From the NCBI RefSeq assembly GCF_008710095.1, contig NZ_VYKJ01000004.1, positions 186,001-250,000 of the forward strand: a DNA stretch of 64,000 nucleotides. Reading direction: 5' to 3'. A program made the translations under genes and the position numbers. Of the stretch, positions 2,943 through 41,930 are shown one piece after another. Under the pieces are notes generated by a model, which did no database searches, was not told the DNA's origin, and saw only the letters and a program-made list of their open reading frames with translations. This DNA is from Affinibrenneria salicis (GTDB lineage Bacteria; Pseudomonadota; Gammaproteobacteria; Enterobacterales; Enterobacteriaceae). Each line of letters begins with the position of its first letter. Positions within the stretch are counted from its first letter, which is position 1.

Positions 2943-4468
2943 TGCAACGCGCGATTGCCGCGCTGGCGATTTTTTTCCTCTACGCCTGCGCCTGGTTCTG
3001 CCTGTGGGCCATCGGCGCGGCGCTGGTGGCGCAGCAGACCGAGGCCGTGATGCTGTTCCCCTTCGGCCTGCGCATCGGCATTCTGCTGCTGGCGCCGCGC
3101 CGCCACTGGAGCGGGATCCTTCTCGCCGAAGCGATGATGCTGTGGTTTTTGTCTCAGCAGTTCGGCGCCGGCCGCTGGCTGTGGGCGGCGGCGCTCAATC
3201 TGGGGTTGTGCGTCGGGCTGGCTTCGCTGGCCGGCGGCTGGCTGCGCCGCTACCGGCAGGAAGACGCCGAGTGGCAACGGCCGCTGCAGCAGGGCGCGGT
3301 GGTGGTGCTGGCCGCGCTGCTGCAGACAGCGGGCTGGTCGCTGGTCGCCCGCGGCGACGCCGGCCAGGCGCTGTTGCTCGGATTGAGCGGCGGTCTGACG
3401 GTGGCGCCGACCTGTCTGTTGATCTGGCACTATCTGGCCCGTCAGATCTGGCTGCCGCTGGAACCGGGACTGATCCATCACCCCGTCAACCTGCGGCTGC
3501 GCCATCTGGTCTGCTATCTGGCGTTGTTTACCCTCAGCCTGTGGCTGCAGCATCTGGCGGTCAATGAGGAACTGCGTCGCTTCGTTCCGTTCTGTCTGGC
3601 GATTCCGGTGGTTTTTATGTCCTGGCGCTACGGCTGGCAGGGCGCGCTGCTGGCCACCCTGCTGAACGGCATCGTGCTGGTGGCGACCGACCCGCATGAC
3701 GCGGCGGCGCACCGCGATATGCTGCTGTCGCTGCTGGCGCAGAGCCTGATGGGCATGCTGCTGGGCGCGGGAATCGAACGGCAGCGCTATCTGAATCAAC
3801 AGCTTAGTCAGAAACTGGCGGAAAACCGCGAGCTGGCGCGTTTGCTGGTGATGGCGGAGGAAAATACCCGTCGCGAGATTGCGCGCGAACTGCACGATGA
3901 AATCGGCCAGACCATCACCGTAATCCGCACCCAGTCCAGTATCATCCGGCGCCTGACCCGCGAGCCGAAGGTGGTCGACAGCGCCGGGGCCATCGAGCGC
4001 TACGCTCTGCGCATCTATGACGGCGTGCACGATCTGCTGGCGCGGCTGTGGCCGGCCGCGCTGACTAATCTGCCGCTGTCGGCGGCGATCGCCGCGCTGC
4101 TGCGCGAACTGGTGCCGCCGGAGCAGCCGATGGTGACGGTGCTCAACTGGCGGATTCCCGACCAGCGGGTGGACGATAGTCTGAAAGTTCTGCTTTACCG
4201 CCTGTGTCAGGAAGGGGTGACCAACGCCTGCCGACACGCCGGAGCGACGCGCATTGAGATCAGCGCGCAGCTCAGCGTCAGCGGACAGCTGCACGTCAGC
4301 ATCCGGGACGACGGGCGCGGCGTGGACGCGCAGCGGGCGACGGCCGGTTATGGCTTGCGCGGGATCAGCGACCGGGTGCGCGCCATGGGCGGCGAATTTC
4401 GGCTGCTTAACCGCCAGGGGACCGAGCTGGTTGTGATCCTGCCCACAATTTTTGCCCGGAACGGATAA
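2942..4468 (+). CDS. uhpB: Sensor histidine kinase UhpB
   Basis: Inner-membrane histidine kinase that pairs with UhpC to phosphorylate UhpA. The protein is 508 aa. The N-terminal half (about residues 1-280) is a MASE1-like multi-pass membrane region, starting AIFFLYACAWFCLW. It is followed by a HisKA_3 dimerisation domain with the phospho-acceptor in RREIARELHDEIGQ (H318, codon 3893-3895). A C-terminal HATPase domain has N-box QEGVTNACRHA and G-box DDGRGV...GYGLRGISDR. Sequence blocks such as FPFGLRIG and WRYGWQGALLATLLN follow E. coli UhpB closely. It starts on the last base of the uhpA stop. A 110-base gap with its own palindrome separates it from uhpC. Confidence 0.94.
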   Translation: MQRAIAALAIFFLYACAWFCLWAIGAALVAQQTEAVMLFPFGLRIGILLLAPRRHWSGILLAEAMMLWFLSQQFGAGRWLWAAALNLGLCVGLASLAGGWLRRYRQEDAEWQRPLQQGAVVVLAALLQTAGWSLVARGDAGQALLLGLSGGLTVAPTCLLIWHYLARQIWLPLEPGLIHHPVNLRLRHLVCYLALFTLSLWLQHLAVNEELRRFVPFCLAIPVVFMSWRYGWQGALLATLLNGIVLVATDPHDAAAHRDMLLSLLAQSLMGMLLGAGIERQRYLNQQLSQKLAENRELARLLVMAEENTRREIARELHDEIGQTITVIRTQSSIIRRLTREPKVVDSAGAIERYALRIYDGVHDLLARLWPAALTNLPLSAAIAALLRELVPPEQPMVTVLNWRIPDQRVDDSLKVLLYRLCQEGVTNACRHAGATRIEISAQLSVSGQLHVSIRDDGRGVDAQRATAGYGLRGISDRVRAMGGEFRLLNRQGTELVVILPTIFARNG

Positions 4469-19874: not shown

Positions 19875-20585
19875 ATGGATCGATATCCTCGTTCTAATGG
19901 TTCTATCGTGGAGCGCGCCGGTAGCGGCATTCAGGCGTATATGGCGCAGGTATACGGCTGGATGACCTGCGGGCTGCTGCTCACGGCGTTTGTTTCATGG
20001 TACGCGGCCAATACGCCGGCGGTATTGGATCTGGTGTTCTCCAGCAAAATTACATTCTATGGCCTGATCATCGCGCAGCTCGGTCTGGTGTTCGTCATCT
20101 CCGGTATGGTGCAGCGCCTGAGCGGCGGGGTGGCGACCGCATTGTTTATGCTGTACTCGGCTCTGACCGGTCTGACGCTGTCCAGCATTTTCATTCTCTA
20201 TTCCGGCGCGTCGATCGCCAGCACCTTTGTGATCACGGCCGGTATGTTTGGCGCCATGAGCCTGTATGGTTACACGACGAAGCGCGATTTAAGCGGCTTT
20301 GGCAGCATGCTGTTTATGGCGCTGATCGGGCTTATCCTGGCGTCGCTGGTCAATATCTGGCTGAAAAGCACCGCGCTGATGTGGGCGGTGACCTATATCG
20401 GCGTGCTGGTGTTCGTGGGGCTGACCGCCTATGACACGCAGAAGCTGAAAGGCATCGGCGAACAGCTGTCCCCGAACGACAAGGATAATTTCCGCAAATA
20501 TTCGATCGTCGGCGCGCTGACGCTGTATCTGGACTTCATCAACCTGTTCCTGATGCTGCTGCGTATTTTCGGCAACCGCCGTTAA
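19875..20585 (+). CDS. ybhL: Bax-inhibitor-1 family membrane protein YbhL
   Basis: 236-aa inner-membrane protein of the BI-1/YccA family with seven expected membrane segments. Bacterial homologues act as pH-sensitive calcium-leak channels (BsYetJ) or FtsH modulators (YccA); the role of YbhL is unknown. Near-identical blocks to E. coli YbhL: MAQVYGWMT, MLYSALTGLTLSSIF, GAMSLYGYTTKRDLSGFG, AVTYIGVLVFVGLTAYDTQKLK, YLDFINLFLMLLRIFGNRR. It follows moaE by 170 bases and has AAGGTGAT upstream of the ATG. As in E. coli it lies downstream of moa. Confidence 0.95.
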   Translation: MDRYPRSNGSIVERAGSGIQAYMAQVYGWMTCGLLLTAFVSWYAANTPAVLDLVFSSKITFYGLIIAQLGLVFVISGMVQRLSGGVATALFMLYSALTGLTLSSIFILYSGASIASTFVITAGMFGAMSLYGYTTKRDLSGFGSMLFMALIGLILASLVNIWLKSTALMWAVTYIGVLVFVGLTAYDTQKLKGIGEQLSPNDKDNFRKYSIVGALTLYLDFINLFLMLLRIFGNRR

Positions 20586-20615
20586 GGCCGCATTCGCGAT
20601 CGGGAAAGGCGGAAG

Positions 20616-20656
20616 TGTGATCGGCGTTATATCGCGGTCCGGCTATTCTCTATAGT
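20616..20656 (+). promoter_or_regulatory. Putative CRP-dependent promoter of the arabinofuranosidase leader
   Basis: -10 TATAGT (20651-20656) has no good -35. Instead TGTGA-TCGGCG-TTATA (20616-20631) matches 8 of 10 CRP core positions, centred near -40 of the expected start at about 20663-20665, the class II position. The start would fall about 15 bases before the RAT. Confidence 0.4.
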
Positions 20657-20677
20657 CTTTCTCGTTAATATCAATCT

Positions 20678-20709
20678 GGATTGTTACTGGCCGCTGGCCA
20701 GGCAAAACC
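20678..20709 (+). promoter_or_regulatory. RAT: BglG-family ribonucleic antiterminator site
   Basis: GGATTGTTACTG (20678-20689), a GC loop extension, then CAGGCAAAACC (20699-20709). These flanks are identical to the RAT sequences bound by BglG/LicT-type antiterminators. The central stem is CTGGCC-GCT-GGCCAG, longer than the CTG-N-CAG stem of bgl. The last four bases are also the first bases of the terminator stem, so the two folds exclude each other. Confidence 0.85.
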
Positions 20710-20749
20710 TGAGTGGGTTCTCGCAAGAGGCTCACTTGGGTTTTTTTTT
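20706..20749 (+). terminator. Conditional intrinsic terminator (attenuator) before the GH51 gene
   Basis: AACCTGAGTG (20706-20715) pairs with CACTTGGGTT (20733-20742) over ten pairs including two G-T. The loop itself folds on CTC-GCAA-GAG, and a run of nine T follows (20741-20749). It overlaps the 3' end of the RAT by four bases and lies about 27 bases upstream of the gene start, the classic bgl-type antitermination layout. Confidence 0.85.
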
Positions 20750-20775
20750 ATCTTTATGTTATTGACGAGGGGTCG

Positions 20776-22356
20776 ATGAGAATGATTAAACGCACTACGC
20801 TTTTCATGGCGGGATGGATGGGAGTAATGTCGGCGGCTGGCGCGGATAGCCGCATTGAAGCGACGCTGCAGGCGGAAAAATCCGGCCCGCAAATATCGCG
20901 CTACCTCTATGGTCAGTTCTCCGAGCATCTGGGGCGCAGCATTTACGACGGCATTTGGGTTGGCCCCGATTCCGCCATTCCGAACACGCGCGGCATCAGA
21001 AATGATGTGGTCGCCGCGCTTAAGGCGATCAAAGTGCCGGTAGTCCGCTGGCCGGGCGGATGTTTTGCCGATGAATATCACTGGCGAGACGGCATTGGGC
21101 CGCGCGATAAGCGCCCGGTGCGCAAGAATAACTGGTGGGGCGGCGCTCTGGAAAGCAATGCGTTCGGCACCCATGAATTTTTCGATTTTGCCGAACAGAT
21201 CGGCGCGGACGCCTATATCTCGGTCAATGTCGCCACCTCCACGCCGACGGAAATGCGCGAATGGATTGAATACCTGACCTCGAAGGACCAGGACAGTCTG
21301 GCCAACGAGCGCCGCGCCAACGGCCGCGACGAACCGTTTAAGGTGCCGTTTATCGGCATCGGCAATGAGAGTTGGGGCTGCGGCGGCAATATGACGCCGG
21401 AATATTATTCCAACGAACTGCGCCGCTGGGGATCGTTCTTCCATAAAGACGGCCTCAATTTCCATGAGGGCAATGACAATACCGCGCTGCGCGTCGGCTC
21501 CGGCGCCAATAACGACGACACCCACTGGACCGATGTGGTGATGAAAAACGCCGCGTTTCACATGGACGCCATCTCTTTGCATTTCTACACCGTGCTGACG
21601 GGCGAATGGGTCAATCGTAATCAGGCCAGCGCCACGGGTTTTCCCGTAGAGCAATGGAACGCGATTTTCCAGCAAACCATGCGTATGGATGATGTGCTGC
21701 AGCAGCATATCGCCGTGATGGACAAACACGATCCGCAAAAACGCATCGGTCTGTTCGTTGACGAGTGGGGCACCTGGTATAATGTTGAACCCGGCACTTA
21801 CGCTGGCCATCTGTTCCAGCAGAACACCCTGCGCGATGGGATTCTGGCCGCCGCCAATTTTAATATTTTCCATAAATACGCTGAACGCGTGCGGATGACC
21901 AACATCGCGCAGACCATCAACGTTCTGCAGGCGATGATTCTGACCGCGGGCGATAAGATCGCGCTGACGCCGACTTATTATGCATTCAAAATGTACGTGC
22001 CGTTTCAGGATTCCACCGCTATCCCGCTCGACGTGAAGGCGCCGCTGTTGTCGGCCGGCGACAAGTCGTTCCCGGCATTTAATGTTTCCGCCGCCAGGGC
22101 GAAGGACGGCAAGGTCTATATCGGCGTGGCCAATATGAACCTGCGCGCAGGCTATGAGCTGGCCATCGATCTGGGAACGCTAAAGGCGAAGTCGGTCTCC
22201 GGCGAAGTGCTGACCAGCGCGGTGATGGATGCGCATAACGTGCTGGGTCAGACCGAAGTTATTCACCCGGCCAGTTACCAGGACGGTAAAATCAACGGTT
22301 CGGTGTTGACGCTGAAAATCCCCGCCAAATCCGTTGTGGTGGTTAGCCTTGAGTAG
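20776..22356 (+). CDS. Secreted GH51 alpha-L-arabinofuranosidase
   Basis: Glycoside hydrolase that releases arabinose from arabinan, arabinoxylan or pectin side chains. About 526 aa. The N-terminus (MIKRTTLFMAGWMGVMSAAGA) looks like a Sec signal peptide, so a periplasmic or secreted enzyme is likely; most bacterial GH51 enzymes are cytoplasmic. The GH51 core shows YGQFSEHLGRSIYDGIWVG, VRWPGGCFADEYHWRDGIGP, acid/base E198 in GIGNESWGCGG and nucleophile E330 in LFVDEWGTWY. ATG 20776 follows GACGAGGGG; ATG 20782 is an alternative. The leader holds a RAT site and overlapping terminator, so expression should need a BglG-type antiterminator. No such regulator or PTS gene is in the window. Confidence 0.93.
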   Translation: MRMIKRTTLFMAGWMGVMSAAGADSRIEATLQAEKSGPQISRYLYGQFSEHLGRSIYDGIWVGPDSAIPNTRGIRNDVVAALKAIKVPVVRWPGGCFADEYHWRDGIGPRDKRPVRKNNWWGGALESNAFGTHEFFDFAEQIGADAYISVNVATSTPTEMREWIEYLTSKDQDSLANERRANGRDEPFKVPFIGIGNESWGCGGNMTPEYYSNELRRWGSFFHKDGLNFHEGNDNTALRVGSGANNDDTHWTDVVMKNAAFHMDAISLHFYTVLTGEWVNRNQASATGFPVEQWNAIFQQTMRMDDVLQQHIAVMDKHDPQKRIGLFVDEWGTWYNVEPGTYAGHLFQQNTLRDGILAAANFNIFHKYAERVRMTNIAQTINVLQAMILTAGDKIALTPTYYAFKMYVPFQDSTAIPLDVKAPLLSAGDKSFPAFNVSAARAKDGKVYIGVANMNLRAGYELAIDLGTLKAKSVSGEVLTSAVMDAHNVLGQTEVIHPASYQDGKINGSVLTLKIPAKSVVVVSLE

Positions 22357-22435: not shown

Positions 22436-23542
22436 TTACGCCACCTTACGCTGGAACATGCGGTAAGCGATACTGCCGGTGAACGCGGTAATGACCAACA
22501 GCGGCCACAGGTTGTGCCAGATGATGTGAAAATCGGCGTCCTTGAGGTAGATCTGTTTGGTGATATCGGTAAAGTGACGTATCGGGTTTATCCACGTCAG
22601 GTGCTGCAGCCACACCGGCATATTTTCGACCGGCGAGACGTAGCCGGACAATAGGATGGCCGGCATCATAAAGACAAACACGCCGATGAACGCCTGCTGC
22701 TGGGTGGAGCACAGCGCTGAAATCAACAGACCGAAGCCGACCAGCGACAGGCCGTAGGTCAGCATGGCGGCGTAAAACAGCAGCAGCGAACCGGCGAAAG
22801 GGATGCGATAGCCCAAAATTCCCACGCCCAGCACGATGGAGCCCTGAAAGCTGGCGACAATCAGCGCCGGCACCGCTTTGCCGACGAAGATTTGCCAGGT
22901 CGACAGCGGCGAAACCAACAGCTGTTCCAGCGTTCCCTGTTCCCGTTCGCGCGCCACCGACAGCGCGGTGACGATCAGCACGCCAATCGTGGTGATCAGC
23001 GCAATCAGCGACGGCACCACAAACCATTTGTAATCCAGATTCGGGTTATACCAGTGGCGCACCACCAGTTCGCTGTTGTTGAGCGTGCCGCGATCGCCCA
23101 GCAGCTCCAGCTGATAGTCGCGTGCGATCTGCTGCACATAGCGCGCGGCGATTTGCGCGCTGTTCGAATTGCGGCCGTCCAGGATCACCTGCAGGGAGGC
23201 GGTCCGGCCGCTGGCGATATCGCGCGAAAAATCGGCGGGGAAACGCACCAGCAACAGCGCGCGCTGGTTGTCCAGCGTGGGCGCCACCTGTTGCGGGCTA
23301 TGCAGCAGCAGAACCTGCGAGAACGCGCTGGCCTTCGCCAGCCGCTGGGTCAGCTCCACCGAAGCCTGGCCGTTGTCTTCGCTGTAAATGGCGATGGTGG
23401 CGTTGGTAACGTCCAGCGTGGCGGCGAACGGCAGCAGAACGACCTGCAGGATCACCGGTGCGATCAGGATGGCGCGCGTCTGTGGTTCGCGCAGCAGCGA
23501 CTGCAGCTCTTTTACGATGAGGGTCCATAAGCGATTAAACAT
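22436..23542 (-). CDS. ybhR: ABC-2 transporter permease YbhR
   Basis: 368 aa inner-membrane permease of the YbhFSR exporter. One N-terminal membrane helix ([23 protein letters not shown]), a large periplasmic loop, then five membrane segments. Family marks: [23 protein letters not shown] and [25 protein letters not shown]. In E. coli this system is tied to tetracycline-type drug, cation and cefoperazone/chloramphenicol sensitivity under CecR. Last gene of cecR-ybhGFSR; it starts 9 bases after ybhS ends. Confidence 0.95.
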
Positions 23543-39176: not shown

Positions 39177-39620
39177 ATGTTTTTCCCTGTAATGAATCGA
39201 TAATAAATTCTACCCGCCCATCTTTCCCGTCGCCAACAAGCCCTGGGTTACGGCCTTGACGCGAGGGCGCATTATCATCATGCCATAATCCTGTCGTACG
39301 GAACCATTGCCGGACGCCGATGCTTTTTTATGCTGACTCGGGGTATGAATATGAGGATAAATGCGGGCATCAGGCGCCGTGGGTTATGCGTTACGGCGAC
39401 GGAATACGCCGAAATTGTCCTGCGTCGTGTTTTTTTGCAGTTTTTATTCAATGGAACCTAAACAAATACACTATATTACGCGCTGTGTTTTCGAGAGTGT
39501 TGGCGTTGTCGGTGTTTTTCACCATGCCGGAGTTATGGCACAGCGGCTGACTTATCTTCAAACCTGTCTGGTGCTGCAGTGACGCATCCTGCAGCCTGGA
39601 TTGATAGGGTTTATAACATA
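39177..39620. other. Intergenic region GST-bglX
   Basis: About 440 bases between divergent genes. A possible -10 CATAAT lies in GCCATAATCCTG near 39280-39292. Open frames here have no recognisable product and no ribosome binding sites, so none is called. Confidence 0.5.
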
Positions 39621-41930
39621 ATGAAATGGCTTTACTCCCTGACGATGGCCGTTGGCCTGGCCTGTCATCCGGCGCTGGCGCAGTCCGTTGCGCCGCTTGC
39701 CGCACCCACGGCAACCACTCCGCAGCAGCAGCGCGATGCCTACGTTTCCGACCTGCTGAAAAAAATGACGCTGGAAGAGAAGATCGGCCAGCTGCGGCTG
39801 ATCAGCGTAGGGCCAGATAACCCGAAAGAGGCAATCCGCGAGATGATCCGCCACGGTCAGGTCGGCGCGATCTTTAACACGGTGACGCGGCAGAACATTC
39901 GCGCCATGCAGGATCAGGTAATGCAGCTGAGCCGGCTGAAGATCCCGCTGTTCTTCGCCTATGACGTGGTGCACGGTCAGCGCACGATTTTTCCGATTAG
40001 TCTGGGCGTCGCCTCCAGCTGGGACCGGGACGCGATCGCGCTCAGCGGACGCATCGCGGCGCTGGAAGCCAGCGAAGACGGCCTGAACATGACCTGGGCG
40101 CCGATGGTGGATATCACCCGCGATCCGCGTTGGGGACGGGTATCGGAAGGTTTTGGCGAAGACACCTGGCTGACCAGCGAGATCGCGCGCATTCTGGTGA
40201 AAGCCTATCAGGGCGACGATCCGCAGGCGCGCCACGCGCTGATGACCAGCGTTAAACACTATGCCCTGTACGGCGCGGTGGAAGGCGGCCGGGATTACAA
40301 CACGGTGGATATGAGCCCGCAGCGCATGTTTCAGGACTATATGCCGCCCTATAAGGCGGCGATAGACGCCGGCAGCAGCGGCGTCATGGTGTCGCTGAAC
40401 TCGGTCAACGGCGTTCCGGCCACCGCCAACCGCTGGCTGCTGCAGGATGTGCTGCATCAGCAATGGAAATTCTCCGGCATCACCATCAGCGATCACGGCG
40501 CGATTAAAGAGTTGATTAAACACGGCGTGGCCAGCGACCCGCGCGAGGCCTCGCGTCTCGCTCTGCAGGCCGGCATTAATATGAGCATGAGCGATGAATA
40601 TTTTATTCGCTATCTGCCCGAGCTGGTGAAAAGCGGCGCGGTCAGCGAGCAGGAGATCGAACTCGCCTGCCGCAAGGTGCTGAACGTGAAATATGATATG
40701 GGGCTGTTCCAGGACCCGTACCGTCATTTGGGCCCGGCGGAATCCGATCCGCAGGATACCAACGCGGAAAGCCGTCTGCACCGGCCGGAAGCGCGCGAGG
40801 TGGCGCGTAAGAGCCTGGTGCTGCTGAAGAACCGGCTGCAAACGCTGCCGCTGAAAAGGCAGGGAACTATTGCGGTGATCGGACCGCTGGCCGACAGTAA
40901 GCTCGATATGATGGGCAGTTGGTCGGCCGCCGGGGTGGCCGCGCAGTCGGTGACGGTTTATCAGGGTATGAAGAACGTAGCCGGGCCGCGGGCGCGCATT
41001 TTGTACGCCAAGGGCGCCAACGTCACCGATCATCAGGGCATCATCGATTTCCTCAACCAGTATGAGGCGGCGGTCGCAATCGAGAAACGTTCGCCGCAGG
41101 CGCTGCTGGATGAAGCGCTGGTCGCCGCGCGTCAGGCCGATGTGGTGGTGGCGGTGGTGGGCGAGGCGCGCGGCATGGCGCACGAGGCCTCCAGTCAGGC
41201 GAAACTGACGCTGCCGGACAGTCAGCGCAAGCTGATCGCCGCGCTGAAAGCCACCGGTAAACCGCTGGTGCTGGTGCTGATGAACGGTCGCCCGCTGTCG
41301 CTGGTGAGTGAAGATCAGCAGGCCGATGCGCTGCTGGAAACCTGGTTCAGCGGCACCGAGGGGGGCAACGCCATTGCGGACGTGTTGTTTGGCGACTATA
41401 ACCCGGCGGGGAAACTGCCGATGTCGTTCCCGCGTTCGGTCGGCCAGATCCCGATTTATTACAACCATCTGCCCACCGGTCGGCCCTATTCGCCGGAAAA
41501 TCCGGGCAAGTACACCTCGCACTATTATGATGAGGCGAACGGGCCGCTGTACCCGTTCGGCTACGGCCTGAGCTATACCACGTTCAGCCTGTCGGATATG
41601 CATCTTTCCGCGCCGCGCTTAAAGCGGGACGGCACGCTGACCGCCAGCGTTCGGGTGAAGAATACCGGCCAGCGGACGGGGGAAACGGTGGTGCAGCTCT
41701 ATCTGCACGATGTGGTGGCCTCGCTGAGCCGGCCGGTGAAGGAGCTGCGCGGTTTTCACAAGGTGATGCTGCAGCCGGGGCAGGAGAAGACGCTGACGTT
41801 CACCATCAGCCCTGAAGATCTGATGTTCTATAACGCGCAGATGCAGCGGGTGGCGGAACCGGGCGACGTTGACGTGATGATCGGTCTTGATTCGCAGCGC
41901 CTGACCACGCAGCGTTTTACGCTGTTATAG
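39621..41930 (+). CDS. bglX: Periplasmic beta-glucosidase BglX (GH3)
   Basis: Family 3 beta-glucosidase, 769 aa from ATG 39621 (MKWLYSLTMAVGLACHPALA, a signal peptide), close to E. coli BglX (765 aa). The frame upstream of this ATG is open but unconserved. The catalytic nucleophile is the aspartate of ISDHGAIKEL (D291). Other blocks: KIGQLRLISVGPDNPKEAIREM, FFAYDVVHGQRT, DPRWGRVSEGFGED, MGSWSAAGVA and FGYGLSYTTFSLSD, leading to a C-terminal fibronectin-III-like domain. Acts on cellobiose and aryl glucosides in the periplasm. Confidence 0.96.
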   Translation: MKWLYSLTMAVGLACHPALAQSVAPLAAPTATTPQQQRDAYVSDLLKKMTLEEKIGQLRLISVGPDNPKEAIREMIRHGQVGAIFNTVTRQNIRAMQDQVMQLSRLKIPLFFAYDVVHGQRTIFPISLGVASSWDRDAIALSGRIAALEASEDGLNMTWAPMVDITRDPRWGRVSEGFGEDTWLTSEIARILVKAYQGDDPQARHALMTSVKHYALYGAVEGGRDYNTVDMSPQRMFQDYMPPYKAAIDAGSSGVMVSLNSVNGVPATANRWLLQDVLHQQWKFSGITISDHGAIKELIKHGVASDPREASRLALQAGINMSMSDEYFIRYLPELVKSGAVSEQEIELACRKVLNVKYDMGLFQDPYRHLGPAESDPQDTNAESRLHRPEAREVARKSLVLLKNRLQTLPLKRQGTIAVIGPLADSKLDMMGSWSAAGVAAQSVTVYQGMKNVAGPRARILYAKGANVTDHQGIIDFLNQYEAAVAIEKRSPQALLDEALVAARQADVVVAVVGEARGMAHEASSQAKLTLPDSQRKLIAALKATGKPLVLVLMNGRPLSLVSEDQQADALLETWFSGTEGGNAIADVLFGDYNPAGKLPMSFPRSVGQIPIYYNHLPTGRPYSPENPGKYTSHYYDEANGPLYPFGYGLSYTTFSLSDMHLSAPRLKRDGTLTASVRVKNTGQRTGETVVQLYLHDVVASLSRPVKELRGFHKVMLQPGQEKTLTFTISPEDLMFYNAQMQRVAEPGDVDVMIGLDSQRLTTQRFTLL

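Follow-up and report, generated by a model that had tools for sequence, protein, structure and literature searches.

In Bacillus subtilis, sacB is under the control of SacY, and licS/bglS under that of LicT. For Enterococcus faecalis, two reports describe how NagY controls a separate exported lyase, HylA, through a ribonucleic antiterminator (RAT) that overlaps a terminator (PMC9981650, PMC12502629). The second also cites effects of BglG on at least 12 Escherichia coli genes beyond its own operon, and 11 further putative RATs in B. subtilis (PMC12502629). The arb operon of Erwinia is described as including a porin together with two putative hydrolases, a glycosyl hydrolase exoenzyme and a nucleoside hydrolase (PMC2646131). 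Here we analyze a 64-kb stretch of the genome of Affinibrenneria salicis (contig NZ_VYKJ01000004.1; hereafter the window), in which a RAT and a terminator stand before a gene of glycoside hydrolase family 51 (GH51). Our comparisons make it very probable that this gene belongs, as a remote single-gene unit, to the regulon of arb, an aryl-beta-glucoside phosphotransferase system (PTS) operon, under RAT-terminator control by ArbG.

A RAT that overlaps a terminator in the GH51 leader

The gene and the elements of its leader are as follows.

20678-20709, + strand: RAT, 32 nt long, with 6 bp in the upper stem and 3 nt in the loop (exact match; 24 of 32 columns invariant in eight leaders)
20687-20701, + strand: upper stem of the RAT, CTGGCC-GCT-GGCCAG (six pairs in 8/8 GH51 leaders)
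20704-20749, + strand: intrinsic terminator (by fold), its 5' arm including AAAACC of the RAT, with nine T at 20741-20749
20776-22356, + strand: GH51 alpha-L-arabinofuranosidase of 526 amino acids (Pfam, PDB homology, motifs)

The RAT, GGATTGTTACTG-GCCGCTGGC-CAGGCAAAACC, matched the pattern with 0 mismatches. The original prediction had held its flanks to be identical to those of the element bound by BglG and LicT proteins, and they are indeed identical to those of the RAT in the E. coli bgl leader, GGATTGTTACTGCATTCGCAGGCAAAACC. This was the sole RAT-like match across the window with up to three mismatches allowed; at the same tolerance none of 100 dinucleotide shuffles yielded a match, and a chance RAT was rejected on that ground. 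A scan of 20500-20900 against Rfam returned no family at E ≤ 1.

The terminator folds at -20.5 kcal/mol (z -4.9), and 0 of 200 shuffles reached a value as low. Its overlap with the RAT, like the run of nine T, had been proposed before; the overlap stands, with the extent corrected from four bases to the six of AAAACC (20704-20709) that the fold of the full leader assigns to both elements. Since these six bases are shared, the RAT and the terminator cannot form together. For the naked leader, the minimum-free-energy structure contains the terminator and, of the RAT, no more than the upper stem, which is expected of a system that needs a protein. A simple terminator scan did not list this terminator, the bulge in its stem being the probable reason. 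Attenuation by a leader peptide was rejected, as no ATG was seen by eye between the assumed start of transcription and the terminator.

Conservation of the leader among relatives

Three overlapping genome samples were searched for GH51 at E ≤ 1e-60. It was present in 5 of 314 genomes of the family (three at 83-85% identity, two at 35%) and in 4 of 118 relatives of genome G592; with a 35%-identical protein as query, it was found in five of the nine genomes of the genus of G494, and G757, G758 and G759 were added. The window-type GH51 was thus found in seven genomes of Brenneria and Lonsdalea (G592, G497, G659, G718, G757, G758 and G759). GH51 identity (99.6%) places G757 in B. goodwinii or very close to it, and G497 close to L. 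quercina. The scan of related genomes for RAT-terminator pairs, which had been suggested as a check, found a pair at 7/7 orthologous loci, with a T-run of 8-10 in all eight leaders, the window included. Across these leaders, the 24 invariant columns of the RAT compare with 42 of 147 in the rest (Fisher p 1.5e-6). The gene occupies three chromosomal sites: next to ybhL in the window, next to a guaC-like gene in G757-G759, and next to a LysR-type gene in the Lonsdalea-like genomes (names by eye). As the RAT-terminator is kept at all three, the leader travels with the gene.

The enlarged GC stem, which the original prediction suggested may set specificity, is real, and peculiar to GH51 leaders among the RATs that we examined: six pairs were present in 8/8 of them and in 0/139 other RATs with a T-run, which have three to five. 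Four pairs are usual (100 of 147 RATs with a T-run), and the window RAT departs from this. The length of the upper stem is not known to be a defining contact of the protein. Predicted stabilities were -11.7 kcal/mol for the window RAT and -9.6 for that of G757, compared with -7.2 for the RAT of arb in G759 and -6.4 for that of bgl in E. coli. Following the layout of helices and loops from the LicT-RAT literature, 11/11 named pairs (two helices with internal loops) form in each of the five distinct sequences. A double change, from C-G to U-A, is seen at one pair, and one-sided changes to G-U or U-G at two. These substitutions fit the helix, as modest evidence and not as proof.

G494 and G657 carry another GH51, 90% identical between the two and about 35% identical to that of the window, located between metL- and metF-like genes (by eye). 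In G494 (locus L125) a RAT-terminator is followed by a GPH/MFS transporter gene and then by GH51 (Pfam), while in G657 (L123) it lies directly before GH51 and the transporter is reduced to an apparent 3' end (by eye). We count the apparent RAT control of this second, 35%-identical lineage in the same genus in favor of antitermination control. By eye, and set against the G494 operon, the G657 leader seems to have outlived the loss of its first gene.

Could the element be a plain terminator, either that of ybhL or a constitutive attenuator, whose RAT likeness is a functionless relic? The survival of the G657 leader once its transporter gene had been deleted (by eye) would suit such a relic. Against this, the RAT and its pairs are kept in eight leaders while the flanks diverge, and the three chromosomal sites have different upstream genes. 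We regard the relic as highly improbable.

RAT control is also not a general trait of GH51 in the family, a proposition that we rejected: PF06964 was found in 14 of 392 family genomes, five of them Brenneria/Lonsdalea-like, and the loci read in the other nine lack a RAT. The same holds for the 11-kb GH51 loci of six of those nine, where a GPH-like gene usually adjoins GH51. A broader contig search gave at least 80 GH51 loci (best identity among those listed 71%), and none of the 80 had a RAT-like match; no enterobacterial title was among those listed, and the absence of Brenneria from them is uninformative. At the level of the order, GH51 was found at E ≤ 1e-100 in 8 of 394 genomes (nine loci), with no RAT.

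ArbG as the candidate reader

The original prediction had remarked on the lack of an antiterminator or PTS gene nearby, and a tblastn search of the whole window at E ≤ 1e-3, with six reference proteins for BglG, PTS enzyme II (EII) and GH1, gave no hit. We looked for BglG-family genes (PF03123) in the relatives, another of the suggested checks, and found them in 7/7 genomes with an orthologue: one in each of G592, G497, G659, G718 and G759, three in G757 and five in G758. In the five genomes with a single gene, it is arbG of an unlinked arb operon; in G759, arbG lies about 1.08 Mb from GH51 on one 4.89-Mb contig. The RAT pattern, which tolerates no mismatch and gives counts that are lower bounds, matched twice in each of these five, three times in G757 and four times in G758. 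The two RATs of the five single-arbG genomes are those of arbG and of GH51. ArbG is thus the only candidate reader that the comparison turned up in five genomes. The core of the original prediction, BglG-type antitermination of GH51, passes these sequence tests as applied to the relatives, with the RAT at seven of seven loci and a BglG-family gene in seven of seven relatives.

Across 14 Brenneria/Lonsdalea-like genomes, 26 RAT matches were obtained in 13, and none with a reversed control pattern. Their targets are arbG-type (13), second bglG-type (2), window-type GH51 (7), other GH51 or its transporter (2), GH30 (1) and alkylsulfatase (1); the arbG-type call in G679, G589, G716 and G761 is from coordinates and PF03123 only. 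G760 had no PF03123 gene, RAT match or GH51 hit. The tblastn queries for BglG, EII and GH1 likewise gave no hit at the GH51, GH30 and sulfatase loci that were searched, over surroundings of 4.5 to 17 kb.

The additional PF03123 genes of G757 and G758 raise the prospect that the RAT is read by a BglG-family protein other than ArbG, or by several such proteins, for example by a second bgl-type system of these two genomes. The GH51 and arb RATs do differ in the upper stem, and in the seven relatives also at one base of an internal loop (TTGTCAC vs TTGTTAC). In 5/7 genomes with the GH51 leader, however, arbG is the only such gene, and we consider another reader unlikely.

The gene product, promoter region and neighbors

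The reading frame starts at the ATG at 20776, and the query used in the searches began at the second codon. The protein matches PF06964 (E 1.9e-39) as well as PF22848. Its homologues of solved structure are 6d25 (E 6e-172, residues 20-524) and 2vrk (E 2e-158, residues 30-524). An IGNE motif at residue 195 and a DEWG motif at residue 329 fall in stretches aligned with 6d25, and we take their glutamates to be the two catalytic residues. Against the NCBIfam equivalog ArfA it scored 214.8 bits, below the cut-off of 625. Judged by family, by catalytic barrel and C-terminal domain and by motifs, the product is a predicted arabinofuranosidase. Its N-terminus, MRMIKRTTLFMAGWMGVMSAAGA, resembles a signal peptide, with a charged start, a hydrophobic stretch and AGA-D, and, from this and from hydropathy, the enzyme is probably exported.

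The GH51 protein of the window shares 91% identity with a Brenneria goodwinii protein and 85% with a Lonsdalea quercina protein. The next closest named relatives are proteins of Asticcacaulis, at about 71%. This, together with the rarity of GH51 in the family, suggests a horizontal gain.

Upstream of the RAT, and before the start codon, we placed the following candidate elements.

20616-20631, + strand: CRP-like pair of half-sites, TGTGA-N6-TTATA, centered at 20623.5 (candidate, by sequence reading)
20651-20656, + strand: putative -10 hexamer, TATAGT (by eye)
20767-20772, + strand: GAGGGG, likely ribosome-binding site (by eye)

Compared with TGTGA-N6-TCACA, which in class II CRP-activated promoters is centered near -41.5, the first half of the CRP-like site is exact and the second agrees at 3/5 positions. 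AAnTGTGA is invariant in 8/8 GH51 leaders, and the second half reads TTACA in two. The center would fall at about -40 if transcription began near 20663.

The flanking genes, for which we use the names ybhL and ybhR, are these.

19875-20585, + strand: Bax1-I family gene, ybhL-like, upstream (PF01027)
22436-23542, - strand: ABC-2 transporter gene, ybhR-like, downstream and convergent (PF12698)

GH51 is a lone gene between the two, and because the downstream neighbor is convergent, it looks monocistronic. A ybhL orthologue was present in 9/9 relatives searched, with no GH51 within 1.5 kb of it in any of the nine. There, ybhR follows ybhL at 94, 450, 811 and 884 nt in G657, G758, G759 and G494, respectively, and was not within 1.5 kb of it in the other five. 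Elsewhere in the window, a GH3 beta-glucosidase-like (bglX-like) gene at 39579-41930 was noticed by eye in the list of open reading frames.

RATs across the family

The RAT pattern was matched in 147 of 392 family genomes, against 15 matches in 14 genomes for the reversed control. From the loci in hand we collected 156 distinct RAT sites, 147 of them with a T-run; these are part of the matches and not a random sample. By blastx against a small reference set, the first downstream gene was of BglG type in 57, a PTS EII in 41, a BglH-type porin in 4, window-type GH51 in 8, and the other GH51, its transporter, GH30 and an alkylsulfatase in one each; 42 were without a reference hit. Among these 42, we noticed by eye OprB- and OprD-type porins, exported-looking histidine phosphatases, SurE-like and NagB-like proteins and a sulfatase (one each Pfam-tested). 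For eight of the 42 there is no T-run; several of these eight fall within open frames and look like chance.

Some individual loci are of note. In L312 (G758:C1:888000-896500; RAT at 4463, - strand), an orphan RAT-terminator with nine T precedes an exported-looking GH30, with no BglG, EII or GH1 homologue in the 8.5 kb. In L313 (G589:C64:102000-110000; RAT at 3296), another with nine T precedes an exported-looking alkylsulfatase-like protein (PF14863). In other genomes of the family, RAT leaders stand before exported-looking histidine phosphatases in L132, L233, L235, L238, L262 and L273 (L233 Pfam-tested), and before SurE-like proteins in L255, L263, L274, L302 and L309 (L263 Pfam-tested). Two leaders of these kinds in G703 are separated by over 100 kb from every other RAT listed. 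In L147, L241 and L278 the downstream proteins are NagB-like (PF01182, L241 only) and resemble YieK, which stands beside the E. coli bgl operon.

Proposed mechanism and purpose

We propose that a promoter with the CRP-like site would make the leader RNA, which by default would fold the terminator and stop transcription. Uptake of an aryl-beta-glucoside through a permease of the ArbF type would release ArbG, encoded elsewhere; the freed protein would bind and stabilize the RAT, preclude the terminator and allow read-through into GH51. ArbG binding, the inducer, export, the substrate and the presence of arbG in the genome that contains the window are the parts of this scheme that we infer.

Several observations weigh against this control. 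The covariation in the RAT is thin, in that 51 of 500 shuffles reach its score and only one double change occurs among the five sequences. The count of two RATs per genome is a lower bound, and diverged RATs can be missed. The reader is not unique in G757 (three BglG-family genes) and G758 (five), and arbG of the window's organism is assumed from the relatives. The second half of the CRP-like site is a poor match, and a scan of the + strand found no sigma-70 consensus promoter. Outside Brenneria and Lonsdalea, the loci of about 3.6 kb of the nine PF06964 genomes have no RAT. The GH51 proteins of G657 and G494 lack an evident signal peptide (by eye), and that of G494 comes with the GPH/MFS transporter, which misfits decapping in the periplasm. 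On balance, real and conserved RAT-terminator control of a probably exported GH51, with ArbG as the reader, is the most likely interpretation.

What such control would serve is suggested by the arb operon itself. In six of the seven genomes, arbG, arbF and arbB are followed by a fourth gene, whose product has a twin-arginine start. Pfam assigns the G757 product (L212:12830-14524) to GH78 alpha-L-rhamnosidase, and the products of the other five genomes are 64-88% identical to this protein. Besides L212, the arb operons with GH78 in fourth place are L117, L118, L119, L213 and L214. In G758 (L214) two tblastn hits overlap near the end of the gene, and the operon of G759 (L211) has fragments of GH78 only. 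The main plant diglycosides, studied in grape, are 6-O-alpha-L-arabinofuranosyl-, rhamnosyl- and apiosyl-beta-D-glucosides, of which the cap is cleaved first (PMC4814449). The exported GH51 would probably strip alpha-L-arabinofuranose caps off such plant diglycosides, and perhaps off arabinan; the decapped beta-glucosides would be imported by the same PTS, with the arb-encoded GH78 rhamnosidase playing the same part for rhamnosyl-glucosides. With an exported arabinofuranosidase and a rhamnosidase both answering to one beta-glucoside signal, the PTS would be supplied. This purpose, taken alone, is tentative, a little short of an even chance. Two points of the original prediction, which had tied arabinan breakdown to an unrelated PTS signal, are doubtful: with arbG the sole antiterminator gene in five genomes and a rhamnosidase in the arb operon of six of seven, trimming of arabinofuranosyl-glucosides could have a direct link to that signal, and arabinan is one of several possible substrates.

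The same ArbG-RAT control might instead serve as a cue to host tissue. Phenolic beta-glucosides of bark would then be the signal, and the enzyme would release arabinose from side chains of arabinan or arabinoxylan, a task chemically unconnected with the PTS substrate. The solved relatives 6d25 and 2vrk are named arabinofuranosidases, bark pathogens occur among Brenneria and Lonsdalea, and the RAT-controlled GH51 of G494 is accompanied by a transporter, as expected for use of oligosaccharides. Conversely, the GH78 of arb and the orphan RAT before GH30 suggest a set of trimming enzymes over an arabinan pathway, arabinanases not having been searched for. We find the host cue a fair possibility, somewhat less likely than not.

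Extending the decapping proposal, ArbG may run a dispersed decapping regulon in which RAT-terminators, as portable cassettes, accompany exported hydrolases gained horizontally (GH51, GH30 and alkylsulfatase, with GH78 inside arb), so that each comes under the phenolic-glucoside signal. Plant conjugates would be funneled into one beta-glucoside PTS, the two GH51 lineages would be convergent, and the six-pair stem would tune the strength of the RAT. We offer this as speculation, a genuine possibility that we would not yet favor.

If ArbG control of GH51 is true, a PTS antiterminator in Gram-negative plant bacteria governs exported plant-glycoside enzymes remotely, beyond its own operon, and orphan RAT-terminators provide a simple rule for finding members of the regulon. 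It would show how enzymes gained horizontally come to be wired into a sugar-sensing circuit already in place, and it offers a testable link from bark phenolic glucosides to arabinose release by tree-associated bacteria.

Comparison with known systems

Our search of the openly licensed literature yielded no report of a RAT in front of an arabinofuranosidase, nothing useful on RATs in Pectobacterium and no paper on RAT specificity. The B. subtilis genes sacB and licS/bglS resemble the present case in that exported glycoside-active enzymes are under RAT antitermination. They differ in that the substrate and the PTS sugar are chemically linked, and in host and enzyme families. The proteins 6d25 and 2vrk are homologous to the window GH51 over nearly the full length.

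The E. coli bgl and Erwinia arb operons share the RAT consensus and terminator layout with the window, and the relatives have an arb operon too; in the described systems, however, the RATs lie inside the PTS operon, whereas the GH51 target is far from it (PMC2646131). The RATs cited for the further BglG targets of E. coli and for B. subtilis are said to be mostly without terminator overlap, while the GH51 RAT overlaps its terminator as in the classical leader (PMC12502629). NagY-HylA is close in design: a PTS-linked antiterminator of the BglG/SacY family there controls a separate, monocistronic, exported polysaccharide-degrading enzyme that was acquired horizontally with its RAT (PMC9981650, PMC12502629). 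It differs in being a Firmicute system with an N-acetylglucosamine PTS and a lyase of polysaccharide lyase family 8 (PL8), in contrast to the enterobacterial aryl-beta-glucoside system, the GH51 exo-glycosidase and the stem-extended RAT of the window. HylA under NagY is a precedent showing that such control is not confined to PTS-linked genes, contrary to what the original prediction had implied. An unlinked exported enzyme under a PTS antiterminator is thus already in print for Firmicutes.

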